Part shown: positions 6,926-48,034 of the stretch, piece by piece
How the letters are laid out: each line of letters opens with the position of its first letter
Position numbering within the stretch: position 1 is the first letter of the stretch
Source: Prevotella histicola JCM 15637 = DNF00424
Lineage (GTDB): Bacteria > Bacteroidota > Bacteroidia > Bacteroidales > Bacteroidaceae
Assembly: GCF_000613925.1 (NCBI RefSeq)
Contig: NZ_BAJX01000004.1
Span: 124,001-188,000 of the forward strand
Length of the DNA stretch: 64,000 nt
Reading direction: 5' to 3'
Position numbers and translations under genes: made by a program
The notes under the pieces: model-generated
What the model saw: only the letters and a program-made list of their open reading frames with translations
What the model was told of the DNA's origin: nothing
The model's database searches: none

Positions 6926-6958
6926 TATAAATTCGTAATAGTAACTCTATTGAAAAAT

Positions 6959-7118
6959 AGGAGATGCCCTTTTGCATTGTAAAAGACGCCCTTTTACATC
7001 GCAAAAGGGCATCTTTTGATGTGTAAAAGGTGCCCTTTTGAAGTGCAAAAGACGCCCTTTTGAAAGCCTGTTGATAACCTATTGATAATCAAGATAATAC
7101 AAAGCTGACTTTCTTGGT
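6959..7118 (+). repeat. Five-core palindromic repeat element, family A copy 1
   Basis: Five 15-nt cores of the type AAAAGRYGCCCTTTT (or its reverse complement) are separated by 7-nt linkers and fill 6959-7061, a 22-nt period. Core orientations run F-F-R-F-F; the first core is degenerate. The tail at 7062-7118 aligns with the tails of the other copies (GCC, TAACC, ATACAAAG) but has lost the GTAAC/GTTAC pairing. Apart from this element and the hairpin at 7422, I see nothing in the 663-nt gap between 6925 and 7589. Confidence 0.9.
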
Positions 7119-7421
7119 GTATTAACTGATTCCGTGAAAATATGACTTCTTTAAACTGTAAAGATACTTTCCCGTACTGACAGTTTATCCTATCAGAAGA
7201 AAAACTGTTTGATATTAGATTTGTTTTTGGCGATAAACTTGATACATTCAGCGGCAACAGAAGTGCTGAAACGAAAGTTGCTGTCACTTCTGTCACGCCT
7301 TCGTGCTCTGTAATAATTTGATTATAAGTATATTATATGAAGTGTTAAAAATGACAGGGAACCAATTCTAAACTTTATCAGGGGTATTATTACCAAAACG
7401 ATCAGAGCAGAAAGATAGCAG

Positions 7422-12619: not shown

Positions 12620-12700
12620 ATGTGATTTAATCTGTATTAACGTATCTTCCAAATGCCTTATCAATGTCTCTTATGTAAAGTTGTTTCACATTTGAAAAGT

Positions 12701-12860
12701 AAGAGACGGTCTTTTGCATTGCAAAAGGGCATCTTTTACAACGCAAAAGGTGCTCTTTTGATGTGTAAAAGGTGCCCTTTTAGAAGGTAAAAGATGCCCT
12801 TTTACATTGCTCACCGTAACCCTCTAAGTATGTGATGGTTACAAAACCACATTTTGGATG
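12701..12860 (+). repeat. Five-core palindromic repeat element, family A copy 2
   Basis: Five 15-nt cores with 7-nt linkers fill 12701-12803. The first core is degenerate (AAGAGACGGTCTTTT); the others follow the AAAAGRYGCCCTTTT pattern in R-F-F-F order. In the tail, GTAACC (12816-12821) pairs with GGTTAC (12837-12842). The element sits between the convergent DPP7 and Ogt genes, in a 416-nt gap that otherwise holds only the two terminators. Confidence 0.92.
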
Positions 12861-12956
12861 ATTCCTTCGAGATATTAGACAGATTACTTCTGATGATTGT
12901 AAGATATTTTTCTGGTGCGAAACATTTGCTTTCTTGTATAGAGATAGTAGAACAAA

Positions 12957-15841: not shown

Positions 15842-17112
15842 CTATTTAGCCTTTAATATCAGTCGTAAGCTCTGCTTATAGTTTATATAGTTCCATACCC
15901 AATTTAGTAGAATGAATGTTTTGTTCTTCACACCAAGGATAGAACGCAGATGAACAACAAGCCACAAAGCCCATGCAGGGAAGCCTCCGAACTTCTTGCC
16001 GGCAATCTCTGCCACAGCATGATTACGTCCTATCGTAGCCATAACACCCAAGTTATGATATTTAAAGGGCTTTAGTTCTTCCCCTTTCTGCATCCGCTGA
16101 AGGTTTGCTGCAACGGTCTTTGCCTGCTGCAAAGCCACCTGTGCTAACTGTGGATGCCCTAAAGGATACTCCTCATCACCCTCCACCAGACTCTGGTCGC
16201 CTATGGCATAGACATCCTGTAAGCCTTAACTTGGCAGAATCTATCGGTAAGTATACGCCCAGCATGCCCGATACTATCCTCTGGTAATCCATCTATATGA
16301 TTTGCACAGATACCACTTACCCAGATAACAGTCTCTGTTGGAATCTCTAATCCAGCGCTTGTCTTCAATACACCATCTTTATATTCCGTTGCAAATTGTG
16401 GCTGACGAATGTGTACATGTAAAGCTTTTAAGTCGCGTTCTGCACGTGCTGATGATGCAGGATCCATAGCAGACAGTAGTCTGTCGACAGCATTTACGAG
16501 GTAAATATGCATTTGTGAAGCATCAAGATCAGGGTAGTCACGCTGTATAACGTTCTTCTTCATCTCTGCAACAGCACCTGCAATCTCTACTCCAGAAGCA
16601 CCACCACCTACGACAACAATATTCATTAAGGCTTGTTTCTTCTTTGGATCTTCCTCCGTTTCAGCCTTTTCTAGATTGCGCAAAATAGTGTTGCGCAAGC
16701 GCATTGCCTCTGAAACGGACTTCATCGGTAGTGTGGTAGCCTCTATTTCTTTGTTCCCGAAGAAGTTCGTCTTGGCTCCTGCAGCCAACACAAGGTAATC
16801 ATAGTGGATGCTACCAACTGAAGTTATGATCTTCTTTTCCTTAGTATTAACACCTTCAACGGTTGCCATGCGGAAGAAGAAGTCCTTGTTTCCTTGGAAC
16901 AAACGTCGGAAAGGAAAAGATATACTACTTGGTTCAAGACCCGCTGATGCCACCTGATAAATCAATGGAGGGAACTGATGATAGTTGTTTTTATCCACTA
17001 ATACTACCTGAAAGTCGGCATCCGTCAGCTTCACAGCCAGCTCTAATCCACCCAATCCACCGCCAACGATTACTACTCTCTTCTTATCTGTGCGTTCGAT
17101 GTTTGCTTTCAT
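15842..17112 (-). pseudogene. ndh: Type II NADH dehydrogenase, frameshifted
   Basis: The upstream segment (17112-16201) starts with an FAD-binding motif (VVIVGGGLGGLELAVKL) and holds the NADH-binding motif VVVGGGASGVEIAGAVAEM. It then leaves frame at VKAYRMSMP and stops. Adding one G (a C on the plus strand near 16224) gives VKGLQDVYAIGDQSLVEGDE, the second FAD motif, and continues to the C-terminal membrane-associating segment (ALWLVVHLRSILGVKNKTF) at 15842. The restored length, about 423 residues, fits NDH-2, which passes electrons from NADH to quinone without pumping protons. If the loss is real the enzyme lacks part of its FAD site and would be dead; a consensus error is likelier. Confidence 0.88.
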
Positions 17113-17127
17113 TATCCTTAAAACATT

Positions 17128-17219
17128 TATATTACTATCCTTAATACAGATATATTACTATTCTTAATACAGATATATTACTATCCTTAATACAGATATA
17201 TTACTATTCTTAATACAGA
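17128..17219. repeat. Four perfect 23-nt tandem repeats upstream of NDH-2
   Basis: Four head-to-tail copies of a 23-nt unit (TATATTACTATCCTTAATAC plus AGA) fill 17128-17219. Copies 1 and 3 read CC where 2 and 4 read TC, so the array is also a duplicated 46-mer. It begins 16 nt before the NDH-2 start codon. Confidence 0.93.
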
Positions 17220-20872: not shown

Positions 20873-20902
20873 TATGTAATAGAATTTCGTATAACGAAAA
20901 GT

Positions 20903-21062
20903 AATAGGTGCCCTTTCGCACTCTAAAAGACGCCCTTTTGCATGGTAAAAGATGCCCTTTTGCAATGTAAAAGGGCGTCTTTTGGATGCTAAAAGGGCAT
21001 CTTTTGTTTTGCCCTTTACAACCAATTGAATCTTAGGAAGTTACAAAGCAAGAAAAAATAGA
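20903..21062 (+). repeat. Five-core palindromic repeat element, family A copy 3
   Basis: Five cores with 7-nt linkers fill 20903-21005, in the order F-F-F-R-R, unlike copies 4-6. The tail (21006-21062) aligns with the others (GTTACAAAG conserved), but the first hairpin arm has changed to ACAACC, so pairing is lost. It lies in a 521-nt gap after the flavodiiron gene; I see nothing else there apart from the promoter near 21370. Confidence 0.9.
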
Positions 21063-21369
21063 TTTTTGTTTGATTTCGAAGTTATGTCACTTCAGTTTTT
21101 GTAAGATTATTTCTAACTGTGTCATCCTTCAGTCATTAATGGTGCAAAAGATCTTTCTTTTGCTTTCATCAGGTTGGAGAAAGAATGTGATTACGTGGCT
21201 TTCAGTTTGCCAAATTGTTCTCTTATAAGATAGAAGTCTTGATATATAGTCTGTTTTATTATTATAATTAGTCTATTTTGTAAGTACAAACTGATTGTCA
21301 ATCAAAAAGTACTTAGTTCAAATTTACCTTAAACTTCTGTATTCAGAGGTAAGATTGTGAAAAAATAAC

Positions 21370-24504: not shown

Positions 24505-26520
24505 ATGAAAAAAATAGCAATTATTCTTTGTGGATTAGGGCTCGGACTCCTCAATCTATCCGCACAAGAGACAAAAGAAACAGTACCTCCACTGTCTGGT
24601 TGGAAGTACTATGGAGGAGATGAATTCAATGGTACAGCTATCAATAGGAAGCTGTGGGGTATCTATGGAGACAAGACGAGGGATTATTTCTTTGATGTTT
24701 ATGGTAACAATAAGAACCAAGGTATGGCCCAAACTTATCGTGATAACATGATTAAAGTGCAAGATGGATTGGCAATAGTAAGGGCTACCCGCAGCAAAAT
24801 CTTCACAGGATTAAGGAGCGATTATACGGAAAAGATGCGCTTCCCTCCTAAGCCTGGGCATGGTTACACAGACCATGGATGGTGGTCAGGGTTCTTATCC
24901 AGTAAGGATGCACAGACTGGTAATATGGATGAACAGAATAAAGAGATAGGCTGTTATTATCCTCTTTATTCGCGAATAGAGATAAAAGCCAAGATACCTT
25001 TCCGTATTGGGACATGGATGGCACTATGGTTGCGGCATTATACAGGGGCAAGTACGTTTGAAATTGACCTACAAGAGTTCTTCGTAAATGATGATCCTAA
25101 GGTTGACAGATATGACAAATACGAAAAGCATAGATACTACAATGCAAACAAAAACTTCCTGCATCAGTCGGTACATGGGATTGATTATCAAAGTGCAACA
25201 GATGAGAATCCTATTCCTAATAAACACAATAACAATGCATATGCAGACAGAGTAAAGGAAATTAAGTTTGATCCTTCAGAAGACTTTCATGTATATGGTG
25301 CACAAATTGACCCTCTTCCTACAGACTCAGGACGGCATTTGGCTGTTACATTCCTTCTGGATGGCAGGGTAAGGTCGGTCTTTTTGACATCAACAGATAT
25401 TGTATCGAACCCTAAATCCAGTCATAAATATAGATACAATGCACTGTTAAGACCTGAATTCATGCCACATGGTATTGACCATGTATGGGATGTTGCAATA
25501 ACAGGGGGTATTGGTGGTACGCCAGGAGACCATAATAGCGGTATTCTATACCCAGAAAGAGACCCTCAATATCATAATGATATCAACAAAACTCCAAAAG
25601 ATTACATCATGGATATAGACTGGTTACGTGTCTATAAACGTGCAAATGAGCTTTTATGGGTTGGTGCTGTACCTCAAGGATGGGACTGGGAAACAACAAC
25701 AGCAAAGATCAATTTATCTAAAGAAGTGCCTGTTGATCGGTTAGCAAAGTTGCAAGTTGGTGATAAGCTCATCTTAGATATAGATACTCTTCCTGCTAAA
25801 GACTTAACTGCTCCACCATGTACCGATCCGAATATGGGACCTGTCTGTGACCGGGATGCTGGACCTTCATCTATCGATATCTGCAATAAGAGCGGGAAAA
25901 GTATTGTGACTTTGAAACCTGAAGTCGCAAGAAATGACGCCCAAGTGACTTTCTATATCACAGATGAAGACATGCTTAACGCCTTAAAGGCAGATGGTTG
26001 TAGTATAATAGGACAGAATATTCGCTTGTTTTCTTTGGTAAGAGAGAAGAAAGATGACGGTATATGGAGTGGTTTCAAGCAAATAGATGATAATAATAAG
26101 GTGGTAATCCCAAAGACAATGTTTGATGGAGTAACAGAAAAACAGGCGTTGGAAGTTACTGTACGGGATGTTAAAAGGGATGCAAAGATTGTCCTACCGC
26201 AATGGAATGAAGCTGATAGAACTATTCCTTTAGTGGCTTCAAATGATGAGAAACAATACTATATCGCACTTGATAAGAACACCGTTAAGATGCTAAAAGA
26301 CAACGGGTTGTATTTTACAGGAGCGGGATTTTACTTAAGAAGTATCAAATTAAAGAACAAGAAAGACTTGCCATTGGGAATCAAAAACATTACTTCACAT
26401 AAGAAAGAAAACGAATCTGTGTATACGATGAGTGGGGTAAAGGTAAAAGAAACCAATGATAATAGCAAGTTAGCCCCTGGCATATACGTCACTAATGGAG
26501 CGAAATTCGTTGTGAAATAA
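24505..26520 (+). CDS. Secreted GH16-family glycosidase with C-terminal sorting-type tail (paralogue 2)
   Basis: This 671-residue paralogue of the preceding gene shares architecture throughout: signal peptide ending LSA-Q, GH16 domain with GGDEFNGTAINRKLWG, catalytic FEIDLQEFF (ExDxxE or ExDxE spacing), FHVYGAQIDP and DWLRVYKR, two C-terminal modules, and the tail MSGVKVKETNDNSKLAPGIY ending KFVVK. It differs by insertions, including a proline- and cysteine-containing loop (PPCTDPNMGPVCDRD) in the first module. The first paralogue keeps Glu at both positions after LEE where this one has LQE, so the acid residue must be the last Glu here. It has its own promoter and terminator, so the two copies can be regulated separately. 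Confidence 0.85.
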   Translation: MKKIAIILCGLGLGLLNLSAQETKETVPPLSGWKYYGGDEFNGTAINRKLWGIYGDKTRDYFFDVYGNNKNQGMAQTYRDNMIKVQDGLAIVRATRSKIFTGLRSDYTEKMRFPPKPGHGYTDHGWWSGFLSSKDAQTGNMDEQNKEIGCYYPLYSRIEIKAKIPFRIGTWMALWLRHYTGASTFEIDLQEFFVNDDPKVDRYDKYEKHRYYNANKNFLHQSVHGIDYQSATDENPIPNKHNNNAYADRVKEIKFDPSEDFHVYGAQIDPLPTDSGRHLAVTFLLDGRVRSVFLTSTDIVSNPKSSHKYRYNALLRPEFMPHGIDHVWDVAITGGIGGTPGDHNSGILYPERDPQYHNDINKTPKDYIMDIDWLRVYKRANELLWVGAVPQGWDWETTTAKINLSKEVPVDRLAKLQVGDKLILDIDTLPAKDLTAPPCTDPNMGPVCDRDAGPSSIDICNKSGKSIVTLKPEVARNDAQVTFYITDEDMLNALKADGCSIIGQNIRLFSLVREKKDDGIWSGFKQIDDNNKVVIPKTMFDGVTEKQALEVTVRDVKRDAKIVLPQWNEADRTIPLVASNDEKQYYIALDKNTVKMLKDNGLYFTGAGFYLRSIKLKNKKDLPLGIKNITSHKKENESVYTMSGVKVKETNDNSKLAPGIYVTNGAKFVVK

Positions 26521-26546: not shown

Positions 26547-26584
26547 AAAAACGCATTAGCACTGAAGCTAATGGCGTTTTTATT
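26547..26584 (+). terminator. Terminator after GH16 gene 2
   Basis: AAAACGCATTAGC pairs with GCTAATGGCGTTTT around ACTGAA, with a T-rich end, 27 nt after the stop. Confidence 0.85.
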
Positions 26585-26679
26585 GATCGTTACTGTCTGG
26601 TTGACCCTTCTGGTATTCGTTATTCATCAACGCCTTACTATATAGTTGATAACGTCAGAAACGAATACGTCATACTGTT

Positions 26680-26860
26680 TTCTACTTATGTGCTGCAGCC
26701 CAGCACCAGTGGAGCTGATGGTTAGCACCAGTGGGGCTAATGGTCAGCACTAGTGGAGCTGATGCCCAGCACCAGTCGTGTTTAGCGTTCAACACCTTCC
26801 GATATGCTACAGATGTGATAGCAGTTTATAATCAGAAGGATGTTGAAACACCAAAGGTGT
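26680..26860 (+). repeat. Five-core repeat element of unrelated sequence, family B
   Basis: Three clear 15-nt cores of the type AGCACCAGTGGAGCT lie at 26702, 26724 and 26746, flanked by degenerate cores at 26680 and 26768. All are spaced by 7-nt linkers, giving 103 nt in total (26680-26782). Each core is a quasi-palindrome (AGC-CCA-TGG-GCT). A tail holds a long inverted repeat, TTCAACACCTTC (26788-26799) against GAAGGATGTTGAA (26835-26847), then ACACC-AAA-GGTGT. It fills most of the 481-nt gap between GH16 gene 2 and the GH66 gene. Confidence 0.8.
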
Positions 26861-27001: not shown

Positions 27002-30000
27002 CTACTTGATAACAACTTTCTTACCCTTGTGGATATACACACCCTTGGTTGGTTTGTCAACCTTGATACCAGATACTGTATAGTAGCCATCATCGGTGTT
27101 GTTAGCATTATCGGTTGTTACATTCTCAATACCTGCAGTCACTGGAACCAGTGATAATACTGACTGTAAAGAGCTGGCAGCATCAGATGGGAATGAAAGA
27201 TAAGCCTCACCGGCAGGTACGAAACCATAAGTCTTGTCGCTGAACTTATCACCCTGCAAAACATAATTGCGTGACTGAGCTGCTTGACTGCCAGGTTTAG
27301 CGCCATGCTCAACAACAATCATTGTCCAATACTTCAAAGAAGGCAGAGTAAACTTAACCACATCACGGTCCTGAGTAAACTTAACTTCCTGTGGAGCACC
27401 GCCCAATGCGTCTGGAGTAGCCACCCAAATACGAGTTACATTGCCCTCATCATAGAGTGTAACAGGTTCTTGAGTATACAAGTTTGGTTCGTTCATAACA
27501 TCCTCTTTCACCTTGCTCTTATCTTTTTCTTCACCATTCTCAAGCTTTGAAAGACGCCATGTCAAACGGTTGGCATTTGTGAAATTTAATAGTTGGATCA
27601 TAGTTTTGTTGTCTTTCTGAGTACTATAAGAGACAATCTTTCCTAACTCTGGCTCCCATGCTTTTACGTTTTTGCCTCCTATTTCCATAGTAACTGTCTT
27701 CTCAACATTACCATCTCTCAGATAGTTTTCATAGGCTGTTAGGAAGTCATAGTAAGTAACTAGACTATTCTCCAATGCGTTTTCTCTCTTTTTCCCAGCA
27801 TCAGGGAAGTACTCAGTATACAGCATATGATCACCGCTTAGTTCGATATGTGCACCGCCCAAAGCAAATATTACAGCATCTGTAAAACGTACTAATGGTG
27901 TGTTAAATGGCTTAATCTGTCCGCCAACCTTATCCATATCAAGATTATCACGGCGGTAATTCATATAAGCAGCGAAGACTGTATTAAGCTTAGGATTCGC
28001 ACTTTCTTCCCTATTACCCTTAATCGCATCTCGGAAACTAGTATACCAACGTTCACCTTCCCACATCTCGTTATATGCGAACTCTATGCTTCCTGAACCA
28101 ACAATATTACGACGTCCATAGTTTGAAACGGAGTTCATGACAAGATACTTTTCGGGTTGTGCAGCCTTCATAGCTTTCAAGAACTTTGCAAAACCTTCAT
28201 AAATCTCACGATCATCACGTCTGTTAGTATCGTCAGCATTATATAACCAATCTGTTCGTTTGCCTACTTGGTCTACATGGAAACCATCAAATGGAAGGTT
28301 TTTATATACTAAGTTAACAGAATCTGTCATATATTTAATCCAATGTTCATTTGAAGGATTCATCAGATAGATATTGGGCCACTCCTTATAAGCATTATAA
28401 CAACCTTGTCGGAGTATACCTTCATCATACCAAATCATTCCCCATTCACGTCCATTCACTCCATCCTTATTGAGGTAATTGACACGAAAAGCTTCACCAT
28501 TTAGTGTGTCTCCAGTTGCCCCATAGCAGAGATTATAGAACATACACTTGGCCCCTACGTTATGTAACTTACTAATGTAGTTGCGTAAAACATTAACAGA
28601 GATCTCACGATTAGCAAAATCCTTCCACGTACCATCGTTATCTTTCTTCCACATTCTATGATGTTGCCATTGCCAATCATAGAACTGTAAACCTGTAATA
28701 TGATGACGAAGAAGAACGTTTACTTCTTTGTTCATTGTATTCATCTTGCTGTTTTGGAAATCAGACAAGAACCCATAACGAGGGAAACGCTTCCAATTAG
28801 AAGAAACATCTATACCGATAGTTGAAAGAACCTTATCCTTATCACCCTCTTTTACATAAACTTCAGCTAAGTAACCTTTGAAGTCGTCCTTAGGAACCTT
28901 CCATGTCCAAGACTTCTTACCACCTACATCTGCGGTGCCAACAACAGTATTGCCATGTAAGTAACGTACCTTTGCACCATTAGGGAATGTGATAAGGCTG
29001 AGTGTGAAGTTAACCATATCACCTGGTCTATAACGAACTTTATCTGTAGAAAGGAGCTTTGGTAAATAAGCATTTGTCCCATCTGACTTAAATCTTATTG
29101 CGTCAAGGTCTGACTTATTTGTCTCTACAACGACACCATCTGATGGGTTCAGAAGGTTGTCTTCATAGCTTTTACCATTGCTTGAGATGGTTAAATTATA
29201 GGTCTGACCTACATTTCCTTTAAGTATTAGACCCGTACCAGCAGCAACAGCACCAGTAACTGCCACCAACTTTATTGATGCATTGTTATTACGTTGAGCA
29301 ACATAAGCTGTCAATCCAGGTGCTGATGAGAAATCAATGGCAAAGTCTCGAGAGAATGTTACATAGTTACTTGTAAGTACATAAGGGATCTTATCCTTTA
29401 CTTTATTACCATAATAAGCCATCCCACTAACGCTATTGAAAGCGCTTGGGTTTACATAGATTGTGAAATCTTTAGGTGTATCGGCAAAGGTGCTACCCTC
29501 TATTGCAAGGCAATTATTACCAGAGTAATAGACACTTGAGAGCGAACGACAGCCGCAGAAGGACTGATCTCCAAAGCCTTCAAAGCCTGCAGGAAGTGCT
29601 ATAGATGTCAAAGCTGTATTGGCAAAACTACGTTGACCGATTCTCTTGAGCGCATTTGATAACCTAACTACCGTTAGATTGCTACAATCTGTGAAGATGT
29701 AGCCATCCATTACCTCTACACTTGAGTTGTCAATTACCGTTGTCAAGCCCTGACATCTATTGAAAGCTGACCATTCAATCTTGGTGACTGAGCGAGGAAT
29801 TGTCACCGATGTAATGTGGTTGTTACCTTCGAAGGCATTGTGACGAATGGCTGTTACCCGATAATTATGTCCATTGTTAGACACGCTTTCGGGGATGTCT
29901 ACAGCGCCATTCACGCCATTACCTCCAACGACTTGGACCTCCGTTTGGGAAGTAGTCTCGTAGTTGATACCTTTCTTATTGAAGCTATCGGCAAATGAAA

Positions 30001-30052
30001 CCAATGCTACAAACAAGGCAAGTGTCAACACGAATGTTTTCTTGATGTTCAT
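27002..30052 (-). CDS. BspA-type LRR fused to GH66 dextranase-like glycosidase, secreted
   Basis: This 1016-residue protein has a signal peptide (about 1-21). Residues 45-210 are LRR_5 (BspA-type) repeats such as VTIPRSVTKIEWSAFNRC. A beta-sandwich region follows, and residues 430-850 form a GH66 barrel. The putative nucleophile is Asp 594 in FHVDQVG and the putative acid Glu 662 in YNEMWEG; their 68-residue spacing matches that of the streptococcal dextranase pair (Asp 385/Glu 453). GH66 enzymes cut alpha-1,6-glucan. The C-terminus carries the shared tail (VSGIKV, then KGVYIHKGKKVVIK). A dextranase fits life in glucan-rich dental plaque. LRR modules joined to GH66 are unusual and may attach the enzyme to cells or matrix (inference). 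Confidence 0.85.
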   Translation of the reverse strand: MNIKKTFVLTLALFVALVSFADSFNKKGINYETTSQTEVQVVGGNGVNGAVDIPESVSNNGHNYRVTAIRHNAFEGNNHITSVTIPRSVTKIEWSAFNRCQGLTTVIDNSSVEVMDGYIFTDCSNLTVVRLSNALKRIGQRSFANTALTSIALPAGFEGFGDQSFCGCRSLSSVYYSGNNCLAIEGSTFADTPKDFTIYVNPSAFNSVSGMAYYGNKVKDKIPYVLTSNYVTFSRDFAIDFSSAPGLTAYVAQRNNNASIKLVAVTGAVAAGTGLILKGNVGQTYNLTISSNGKSYEDNLLNPSDGVVVETNKSDLDAIRFKSDGTNAYLPKLLSTDKVRYRPGDMVNFTLSLITFPNGAKVRYLHGNTVVGTADVGGKKSWTWKVPKDDFKGYLAEVYVKEGDKDKVLSTIGIDVSSNWKRFPRYGFLSDFQNSKMNTMNKEVNVLLRHHITGLQFYDWQWQHHRMWKKDNDGTWKDFANREISVNVLRNYISKLHNVGAKCMFYNLCYGATGDTLNGEAFRVNYLNKDGVNGREWGMIWYDEGILRQGCYNAYKEWPNIYLMNPSNEHWIKYMTDSVNLVYKNLPFDGFHVDQVGKRTDWLYNADDTNRRDDREIYEGFAKFLKAMKAAQPEKYLVMNSVSNYGRRNIVGSGSIEFAYNEMWEGERWYTSFRDAIKGNREESANPKLNTVFAAYMNYRRDNLDMDKVGGQIKPFNTPLVRFTDAVIFALGGAHIELSGDHMLYTEYFPDAGKKRENALENSLVTYYDFLTAYENYLRDGNVEKTVTMEIGGKNVKAWEPELGKIVSYSTQKDNKTMIQLLNFTNANRLTWRLSKLENGEEKDKSKVKEDVMNEPNLYTQEPVTLYDEGNVTRIWVATPDALGGAPQEVKFTQDRDVVKFTLPSLKYWTMIVVEHGAKPGSQAAQSRNYVLQGDKFSDKTYGFVPAGEAYLSFPSDAASSLQSVLSLVPVTAGIENVTTDNANNTDDGYYTVSGIKVDKPTKGVYIHKGKKVVIK

Positions 30053-32824: not shown

Positions 32825-33324
32825 TGTTTGTTTGTACTTTATTTAATTGTTTAATGAGTTTTTTTGCGGCTTTAGTTCCCTTCAGGTTCACCCAAGTCTA
32901 CTGATTAGATAGTCTTGAGTTGTTTCTGGAAATACGTCGTTATAATAATTTATCCATCAAGAAACTCCATGCAGTAGATGTATATGTCATACGCTGTGGA
33001 TTGTTTCTGACTTCTGTCAAACGAATACAAAGTTATGAAATGTTAGATAGAAAGAATATCGATATGGATGTGAATATAAACATTTAGATAGTTATATACA
33101 CTGTTAATCAGTGTGTTATGCCTGTTATTGTGATAGGTTTTTATAAAGAATATATAATCTAATAGCAAATAAAAAATGGCTATTTAAGCACAGATATGTA
33201 TTAGTCTGAATGCTTAACTGCCAACTAAAGAAGTACGCACAGAGAATCTTTAAGTATTGAAATATGGCGAGGGTAGAGGACGAAGATGATCCTTTTTTGT
33301 AAAACTATTTACTCTTTCATTTTT
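32825..33324. other. Intergenic region, only a weak promoter seen
   Basis: About 500 AT-rich nt lie upstream of the BspA-like gene. Apart from a minus-strand TAACTTTGT (33027-33035) no coding, RNA or repeat signal is evident. Confidence 0.5.
33027..33035 (-). promoter_or_regulatory. Putative -7 box for the BspA-like operon
   Basis: On the minus strand this reads TAACTTTGT. It implies a leader of about 200 nt before the ATG at 32824; the -33 region is not convincing. Confidence 0.35.
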
Positions 33325-33487
33325 AATAGGGCGTCTTTTGCATTCTAAAAGGGCGTCTTTTGCAATGTAAAAGATGCCCTTTTGCGTTGTAAAAGGTGCC
33401 CTTTTACATGGTAAAACATGCCCTTTTACAAGCCGTTTTGTAACTGTTTGAGTCTGTGGATGTTACAAAGTCGAAAAAAGAAGGTTT
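33325..33487 (+). repeat. Five-core palindromic repeat element, family A copy 4
   Basis: Five cores (R-R-F-F-F) with linkers GCATTCT, GCAATGT, GCGTTGT and ACATGGT fill 33325-33427. In the tail, TGTAAC (33439-33444) pairs with GTTACA (33462-33467), and the tail ends GTCGAAAAAAGAAGG. Linkers match copy 5 (read in reverse) at 27 of 28 positions. The gap from here to 33842 shows nothing else convincing. Confidence 0.93.
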
Positions 33488-33842
33488 CCTCTTACTTTGC
33501 TCTTCCTTAGGCACTTTTATTTGTAAGGTTGTTTTACCATTCGTGTTGTCTTTACTTTCATGTTTTCTCTTACGGCATAATGTGTGATAGAAGAGCATGC
33601 AGCCCTTTGCTAGCCTACCTTTCCAGCTTGCCTCTTTACTAGATTCGGAGATAGGCTTCAAACCTTTATACTTCCTATGATGGCATAGTGTGGGATGTAG
33701 TCTTTGCTTCCTGATATCCCAAACATCCTACTTAACGCCGTTGATGATTGTGCATTGACACAAGAGAAAATGAATGAGAGTGAACTAAATGTGCTTATCG
33801 TATTAGTTCTTGTATAATGATGAAAGATATAATAGAAAAGAG

Positions 33843-38885: not shown

Positions 38886-38999
38886 TAGACTGTCTTGTCG
38901 AGGAAGGAATATTAAGTTTGGGGAGTCGAAAGGGAACAAACGTCTAGCAGTAAAATAACCTTACACTTTGCGAGGCGTACGAAAGTGTGAAATGAATGA

Positions 39000-39162
39000 A
39001 AACCTTCTTTTTGCGACTTTGTAACCTTCACAGAATCAAAAGGTTACAGAGAGGCTTGTAAAAGGGCATGTTTTACGATGTAAAAGGGCGTCTTTTACAA
39101 CGCAAAAGGGCATCTTTTACATTGCAAAAGGTGCCCTTTTAGAATGCAAAAGACGCCCTTCT
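39000..39162 (-). repeat. Five-core palindromic repeat element, family A copy 5 (inverted)
   Basis: This is the only copy in reverse orientation. The array is 39060-39162; read on the minus strand it is R-R-F-F-F like copies 4 and 6. The tail (39000-39059) has the best hairpin of the family: TGTAACCTT (39020-39028) and AAGGTTACA (39040-39048), a perfect 9-bp stem. It lies between two convergent genes. Confidence 0.93.
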
Positions 39163-39261
39163 GAAAAGTGAATGGGATTTTTCTTGACAAAAGAAGTAGG
39201 TTTTGGGTAGTATGAAGTATGACTCCGTTTTTTGCAAAGGCTGCATCATGGGAGCATAAAC

Positions 39262-47500: not shown

Positions 47501-47800
47501 ATGTTTCTCATACCATGGGTTGGACTTTTGTGATCGTGTTTCATCCTTTCTTTCTTATACTTGTAAGGTATGTCAACACGGAACTGCAGTCTGATGATGA
47601 CAGGAATATCCAGCATTTATCTTTGTTTTGCATGTTTTCTTTGTGCCTGACGGTAGTGATAGATCTGTCTTTGGGGACTTTTTCTTCTGCTAGTTCCCTA
47701 TTCCCCGTGTGTAGAGTTATCTTTTATTCGTAACATTATACACATAGGGTTGAGGCAAAGCATAATCCTCTTTTGTAAAATTTATTCCTCTTCCGTTTTT

Positions 47801-47963
47801 AATAGGGCGTCTTTTGCATTCTAAAAGGGCACCTTTTGCATTGCAAAAGATGCCCTTTTGAGGTGTAAAAGGTGCCCTTTTACATGGTAAAACATACCCT
47901 TTTATAAGCCGTTTTGTAACTGATTGAATACTTGGACGTTACAAAGGCGAAAAGAGTTGGTTT
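47801..47963 (+). repeat. Five-core palindromic repeat element, family A copy 6
   Basis: The array 47801-47903 has five cores in R-R-F-F-F order, as in copies 4 and 5. First and last linkers (GCATTCT, ACATGGT) equal those of copy 4. In the tail TGTAAC (47915-47920) pairs with GTTACA (47938-47943). About 35 nt on the left (TTTTGTAAAA, CTCTT, TTTTTAATAGGG) are also shared with copy 4, so the full element is near 200 nt. It lies between convergent genes. Confidence 0.93.
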
Positions 47964-48034
47964 TCTCTTGTTTTGAACTTTCTTATATTTTTAAAAGTGT
48001 AATATTGTTTTATCATCAACTCTATTACTCCTTT

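Follow-up and report, generated by a model that had tools for sequence, protein, structure and literature searches.

Families of repeats in bacterial genomes are usually defined by their sequence and explained by copying. For REP elements, each palindrome is adjoined by a constant GTAG or CGTC tag. As described in the accessible text of the sources, the REP and BIME elements of enterobacteria (PMC6379681, PMC2817692, PMC3733652) are intergenic palindrome arrays of high copy number; E. coli BIME-2 is a gyrase site with a helically phased G+C pattern, and may contribute to genome organisation (PMC6379681). By the accessible text on two further systems, Prevotella intermedia and P. nigrescens carry PINSR, a 188-bp intergenic repeat of 177-184 copies per genome that was judged non-coding, with about three-quarters of its positions conserved between two strains (PMC4755523), while Porphyromonas gingivalis carries the BrickBuilt MITE, in which 23-nt direct repeats occur in variable number across 19 copies, with IS5-like terminal repeats and 4-nt duplications at some sites (PMC4596501). 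In the accessible text of the open-access literature, neither even spacing nor dyad arrays with a 22-nt period turned up for the Prevotella group, PINSR and BrickBuilt being the closest reports.

The arrays analysed here contain a small number of imperfect dyads, each 15 nt long and set exactly 22 nt from the next, with paired arms of about 5 nt and 5-7-nt stretches between them. Like REP/BIME-type elements, they are high-copy intergenic palindromes near gene 3' ends. Unlike REP and BIME, as far as the source text describes these, they are built of complete 15-nt dyads at one exact pitch, no Y1/RAYT gene was found with them, and several unrelated families follow one spacing rule in a single genome. 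By eye, neither GTAG nor CGTC is fixed in the B units, and CGTC occurs in A as one 7-nt block variant. PINSR, compared by description and not by sequence, is likewise intergenic, high-copy, non-coding and of the same genus, but as described it has no 22-nt periodicity, spacing rule or family exchange. BrickBuilt, as described, resembles the present arrays in being an intergenic element of the Bacteroidales with a leader, a tandem repeat, a tail and predicted long stem-loops; the present arrays, in contrast, have no 23-nt repeat unit, keep to a pitch of 22, and show no clear duplications. They also differ from a CRISPR array, since the 7-nt stretches between cores are alike and there are no unique spacers. 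Hence, relative to PINSR and BrickBuilt as these are described, what is new is the 22-nt dyad pitch, the even spacing, and the exchange of sites between unrelated families. The arrays keep their pitch and palindromy, vary freely in sequence between families, are jointly and evenly spaced, prefer convergent intergenic regions, and exchange families at given sites. This suggests that the cell uses the geometry of the array, and not its letters, to mark or organise the chromosome.

In the window (the whole stretch of 64,000 nt that was analysed), the array lies between a gene at 24505-26520 (+), whose GH16-like match is weak and below the cut-off, and a GH66 gene at 27002-30052 (−). The closest named relative found is P. 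multiformis, with 84% amino-acid identity for one peptidase, in a search that may omit very near records. The first-pass annotation had described five units of 15+7 nt with degenerate outer cores. The three central cores are indeed present at 22-nt intervals, and together with the fourth they hold this pitch exactly over 26702-26782, matching 6, 6, 5 and 5 of 7 dyad positions, respectively. As for the outer cores, the one at 26768 is degenerate as claimed, while the 15-mer at 26680 amounts to a left half-core, which the right half-core mirrors. The window array is thus really made of four full cores and two half-cores (Table 1). The inverted repeat of the tail, proposed at 26788-26799 with 26835-26847, is present, with a 1-nt bulge. 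It does not hold as a conserved feature of family B: among the displayed copies only L007 has the region, by eye, and there the repeat has decayed. Matches to the core within the window number 10, against 1.6 expected by chance; Rfam 15 covariance models gave no match to the window above the gathering score.

Table 1. Family B array with its neighbouring hairpins, and the family A elements of the window
Feature	Position	Strand	Basis or remark
Family B element, leader TTCTACTTATGTGCT + array	26674..26806	+	Family-B HMM, nhmmer C52:150674-150806, E 2.7e-27 (this copy is one of the 16 used to build the HMM)
Left half-core GTGCT	26690..26694	+	2/7 dyad pairs in the 15-mer at 26680; recurs in other B copies
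Core 1 AGCACCAGTGGAGCT, then 7-nt GATGGTT	26702..26716	+	
Core 2 AGCACCAGTGGGGCT, then 7-nt AATGGTC	26724..26738	+	
Core 3 AGCACTAGTGGAGCT, then 7-nt GATGCCC	26746..26760	+	
Core 4 AGCACCAGTCGTGTT, degenerate, 5/7 dyad pairs	26768..26782	+	
Right half-core CAACACC	26790..26796	+	
Tail hairpin TTCAACACCTTC / GAAGGATGTTGAA, 1-nt bulge	26788..26847	+	Sequence common to one other displayed copy (by eye)
Intrinsic-terminator-like hairpin, separate, after the upstream gene and before the array	26554..26573	+	Pattern match only
Family A	6938..7178	+	nhmmer C52:130938-131178; syntenic site occupied by A in G148 and G162
Family A	12667..12925	+	Syntenic site occupied by a B-type array in G148 and G162
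Family A	20873..21127	+	Short syntenic intergenic region of G162 and G003 without array
Family A	33289..33543	+	A in G148; B in G162 (one anchored flank)
Family A	38941..39197	−	B in G148 (one anchored flank); B beside both, rearranged, flanks in G162
Family A	47765..48019	+	No A or B within 2.5 kb of the anchors in G148 or G162

Family B has at least 20 copies in the genome: 16 places by blastn, including the window, and four more by HMM (C52:16551, C52:114192, one in L287 and one in L289). The blastn places were taken at E≤1, with overlapping or adjoining matches merged (L011/L012, L013/L014) and a 16-base match (L019) dropped; L017 and L018 were kept despite E-values of 0.19 and 0.36 because their cores are plain to the eye. 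The pitch is 22 in all 16 copies. Five units, the number given in the first-pass annotation, is not the mode: three full cores are found in 10 of the 16 copies, four in 3 and two in 3. By eye, the consensus is a leader TTTTACTTATGTGCTGCAGCC followed by units of AGCACCANTGGWGCT + GATGSYY. By blastn among 60 evenly drawn genomes, the present one included, family B occurs in its own genome only; by HMM it is also found in G148 and G162, both of which lie outside that draw.

Family A is an element of about 260 bp with a leader TTGTAAaataaaTTC, cores of the form AAAAG-N5-CTTTT at pitch 22, a tail hairpin TTTGTAAC..GTTACAAA, and an end motif TTTTGTAAGnTTATTTC. In a sample of 448 kb (C52 1-188000 and C54 1-260000), nhmmer finds 53 A places, 51 of them near full length, and by extrapolation there would be about 350 copies per genome. 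Five cores are present in 49 of the 51 copies and four in the other 2. The ends of the element resemble direct repeats, TTGTAA..TTC. A-like arrays with lineage-specific 7-mers were found by blastn in 7 of 40 genomes of the genus, again with the present one included. A family C, of TTACAAGGCGTCTGTA type, contributes two arrays within the 448 kb. Families A and B are unrelated in sequence, as the first-pass annotation had it: their best unit identity is 10-11 of 22, the level of random palindromic units (P 0.24-0.60). An apparent likeness in shifted register (common CATTG, GATGCCC) was no better than that of random palindromic units and was dropped. Separately, a period-22 dyad array at about 4300 of L284 (G000:C38) fits neither the A nor the B model, and possibly belongs to family C or to another.

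The period of 22 is specific. Over all families, there are 52 period-22 arrays of at least four dyads in the 448 kb, against 0-1 in Markov sequence, and the period is 22 in 44 of 44 arrays of C52 and C54. A de novo scan of 80 named loci at a stricter threshold gave 13 arrays at pitch 22 and at most four at any other pitch from 17 to 29. The arms differ wholly between arrays in these loci (TGGAA/TTCCA, GATAA/TTATC, GGTAA/TTACC, TACAA/TTGTA), and in the window genome they are AGCAC/GTGCT in B and AAAA/TTTT in A. An array reported in L055 by the first scan proved to be an artefact of runs of N matching one another. Since the scan requires dyads, palindromy follows by construction, and only pitch, spacing and family swaps are independent evidence for the architecture. 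In P. multiformis, a near-perfect TACAAACGCTTTGTA array at pitch 22 lies at 21602-21711 of L020 and is single-copy in its own genome by blastn; perhaps it is young or relict. Its single copy counts against a boundary role.

Along the chromosome, the families are evenly spaced when taken together. In the 448 kb, 53 elements of A, 5 of B and 2 of C are separated by 58 gaps with a mean of 7.3 kb, a coefficient of variation (CV) of 0.31, a minimum of 3.17 kb and a maximum of 12.0 kb, whereas random intergenic placement gives a CV of 0.89 ± 0.12; no gap is below 3 kb, against 15.8 expected under that placement. When the null keeps the convergent, co-directional or divergent class of each region, its CV is 0.86 (P<1/5000; 59 elements, without the C that lies at a contig end). 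In the window, the centres lie at 7058, 12796 and 21000 (A), 26720 (B), and 33416, 39069 and 47892 (A). The five B elements of the 448 kb, and the single C that is flanked by A to either side, fill large gaps of A, at 5.1-8.7 kb from the nearest A; in 20,000 draws of six A-free intergenic regions, none kept such a distance. In 12 further stretches around other B copies there are 15 B, none of which comes closer than 2.35 kb to an A of its own stretch; for five of them the stretch holds no A, and two B are 2.5 kb apart. Compared with free intergenic regions, the avoidance of A by the 10 B in the seven stretches that hold an A has P=0.039, a test that is conservative because the stretches are centred on B.

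Spacing of the same kind is found in two sister species, G148 and G162. In G148, 8 A and 9 B over 100 kb have a CV of 0.44 against 0.80 for random intergenic placement (P 3e-4), and in G162, 8 A and 6 B over 120 kb have 0.44 against 0.81 (P 4e-3); gaps below 3 kb number 2 against 5.7 expected and 1 against 3.5, respectively. A GH66 search across 398 genomes was used solely for locating near relatives. Sites of C52 were compared with those of the two sister species using flanking genes as anchors. In G148, 9 of 10 comparable sites are occupied: by the same family at 100751 (where a B is also nearby), 105055, 114250, 119523, 131058 and 157416, and by the other family at 88743, 136796 and 163069, with nothing at 171892. 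In G162, 5 of 7 are occupied, by the same family at 119523 and 131058 and by the other at 136796, 157416 and 163069, with nothing at 145000 and 171892. Only one flank is anchored at 163069 and at the empty 171892 in G148, and at 157416 in G162; at 163069 and 171892 in G162 the anchored flanks are no longer neighbours. With sites treated as random intergenic regions, the chance of such occupancy is 7e-4 for G148 and 0.02 for G162. Conserved sites alone could reflect inheritance, but a change of family at one site is not explained by it. Outside these counts, since only one flank is available, G162 also has an A element about 0.45 kb past the sequence matching the end of the window GH66 gene, where the present genome (G000) has the B array. 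By contrast, G003 has no A or B by HMM, even at E≤1, in 80 kb that span several of the compared sites, and one A-like place elsewhere; the system is therefore not essential in the genus.

In another genus, two other families, unrelated in sequence, keep the pitch of 22. Among 165 first-look candidates in Hoylesella loescheii DSM 19665, the 40 that were scored contained 55 matches to a T family (TGGAA-N5-TTCCA); the other family is C-like. Seven arrays found de novo served to build the C-like model, which recovered just these seven. Along 400 kb of contig 1 there are 27 T places, which the merging of close pairs reduces to 24; together with the 7 C-like arrays they make 31 sites, with a merged CV of 0.39 against 0.87 (P<1/5000) and one gap below 3 kb against 4.9 expected. 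Six of the seven C-like arrays lie 5.6-12.8 kb from the nearest T, and one at 2.1 kb. Counting against even spacing, three T pairs are only 387-463 bp apart, and T alone, unmerged, is less even (CV 0.56, P 0.009). As an observation by eye, the T copies in L239 and L248 have long outer inverted repeats, so that the whole element is a long imperfect palindrome.

Gene context adds a further regularity. Intergenic regions of at least 60 bp were counted between genes taken as greedily called ORFs of at least 90 aa, by which small genes may be misread. ORFs below 450 bases overlying elements were removed first; otherwise 46 of 50 A arrays lie between called genes and the other 4 inside short ORFs. 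In the 448 kb, an element is present in 27 of 40 convergent regions, i.e. two-thirds, compared with 26 of the 123 co-directional regions and 6 of the 37 divergent ones (convergent versus the rest, Fisher P 2e-8). In H. loescheii, the corresponding counts are 14 of 42, 13 of 109 and 4 of 42 (combined Fisher P 0.0015), the convergent excess arising from T (13 of 42) and not from the C-like family (1 of 42).

The interpretation of the first-pass annotation is thus partly supported. Its main claim, that architecture and not sequence matters, is favoured by the swaps between A and B at syntenic sites, the placing of B in large A gaps and the two families of H. loescheii; a fixed number of five units does not hold. 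Its suggestion of lineages of one element type fits these results. The reading we prefer, at a probability of roughly 0.4, is that the arrays are chromosomal or topological boundary elements whose architecture is what is read, a function to which the spacing, the preference for convergent regions and the swaps would point, as would the separate terminator-like hairpin that precedes the window array. A tentative and broader form of this, still short of an even chance, is that they are milestone elements by geometry alone: any palindrome family of 22-nt pitch would serve, families would swap at fixed sites, one spacing rule would extend across genera of the Prevotellaceae, and a factor or a DNA/RNA structure would sense the spacing of the dyads rather than their sequence. 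The element would act on the chromosome as DNA. Its phased dyads may serve for the cooperative binding of dimers of a topological protein or one that bends DNA, such as a nucleoid protein or gyrase, or alternatively may extrude as a hairpin array. At a density of about one per 7-12 kb, each element would then separate neighbouring units as a topological or transcriptional boundary. If selection favours one site of this kind in every domain, families would be interchangeable provided that their geometry is right. As to gyrase, for which E. coli BIME-2 is a precedent, the 11-bp G+C periodicity of gyrase sites is seen in A and the sister A (power 12) and is absent in B and T, and even the value for A does not reach the 90th percentile, 13.6, given by random palindromic arrays of 22 nt. 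Gyrase wrapping is therefore not a general account, and this periodicity was rejected as a common mechanism. It also counts against the boundary reading that in the sister-species A several local dyads are lost, as judged by eye from the consensus, and yet the copies are alike.

Other explanations must be weighed against the boundary reading. The arrays may be non-autonomous, MITE-like mobile elements that avoid existing copies, with even spacing produced by target immunity and counter-selection in genes and any function secondary. The homology of A copies over about 260 bp, leader and tail included, is what mobility would leave, as are the high copy number and the location of A arrays between genes or in short ORFs. 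For P. gingivalis, the accessible text describes a MITE of comparable build, composed of a leader, a tandem repeat and a tail (PMC4596501). No clear target-site duplication is apparent, however: among 51 own and 15 sister copies, the best result over thousands of offset pairs was 6 of 51 4-mers against 1.9 expected, with diffuse element boundaries. For the Y1 (RAYT) family, the one transposase family covered, PF01797 had no match in the present genome (G000, 95% complete), while 5 of 14 control genomes were positive. Moreover, A and B avoid each other without significant common sequence, and the species that share sites are 65-83% identical (G162) in aligned blocks of at least 250 bases. On balance we find mobility alone a rather improbable account. 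That the arrays are instead a passive product of template switching and loop inversion, which would keep tandem palindromes alike with no function at all, is very improbable. At each of the five positions, the 7-nt blocks of A do occur either way round, with 17 orientation patterns among the 51 copies, and seven block types occur both ways in H. loescheii; flipping of loops between paired arms would be expected to give such two-way blocks. But an exact 22-nt pitch across unrelated families, the even spacing and the family swaps are left unexplained by it. The six A elements of the window (6938-48019) likewise have 7-nt blocks of either orientation, which looks as though the loops between the palindromic arms were often inverted.

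A further, unlikely alternative places the function in RNA, with long bidirectional hairpins at 3' ends that would stop read-through between convergent genes or protect the ends of transcripts. One turn of A-form RNA takes up about 11 nt. The convergent bias in both the 448 kb and H. loescheii is consistent with this, and on either strand the arrays fold much more stably than shuffled sequence does (mean z about −7 for 25 A copies and −3 for 15 sister copies), although good folding on both strands is what repeats of palindromes must show. In addition, the sister consensus forms one long hairpin despite its lost local dyads. Against this, base-pair coupling between A units is not consistently positive: in 51 A copies, z is 2.9 for the block pair s1_1 x s1_5 and 2.0 for one nested set, several others are negative, and the G-test is dominated by block inversions, for which reason RNA covariation was rejected as support. 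At the window locus, a separate terminator-like hairpin already precedes the array. Finally, such a function alone does not predict even spacing, which persists with gene context fixed.

If the architecture reading is true, these arrays would be a new kind of intergenic palindrome element. Unrelated sequences of the same pitch at the same evenly spaced sites would be a rare natural experiment, in which the reader must sense shape or symmetry. Should the arrays mark domain boundaries, oral Prevotella would provide a boundary map legible from sequence, and the role of intergenic palindromes would become directly testable by family swapping.

Two minor observations concern neighbouring sequences. 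In G148, a transposase-like gene at 5034-7544 of L209, ISL3-like by eye, adjoins the A element at the site syntenic to window position 33416. In the window itself, a near-perfect 23-nt tandem repeat of 4.7 copies (92% matches), not of the 22-nt dyad kind, occupies 17113-17219, directly upstream of the gene at 16201-17112 (−).
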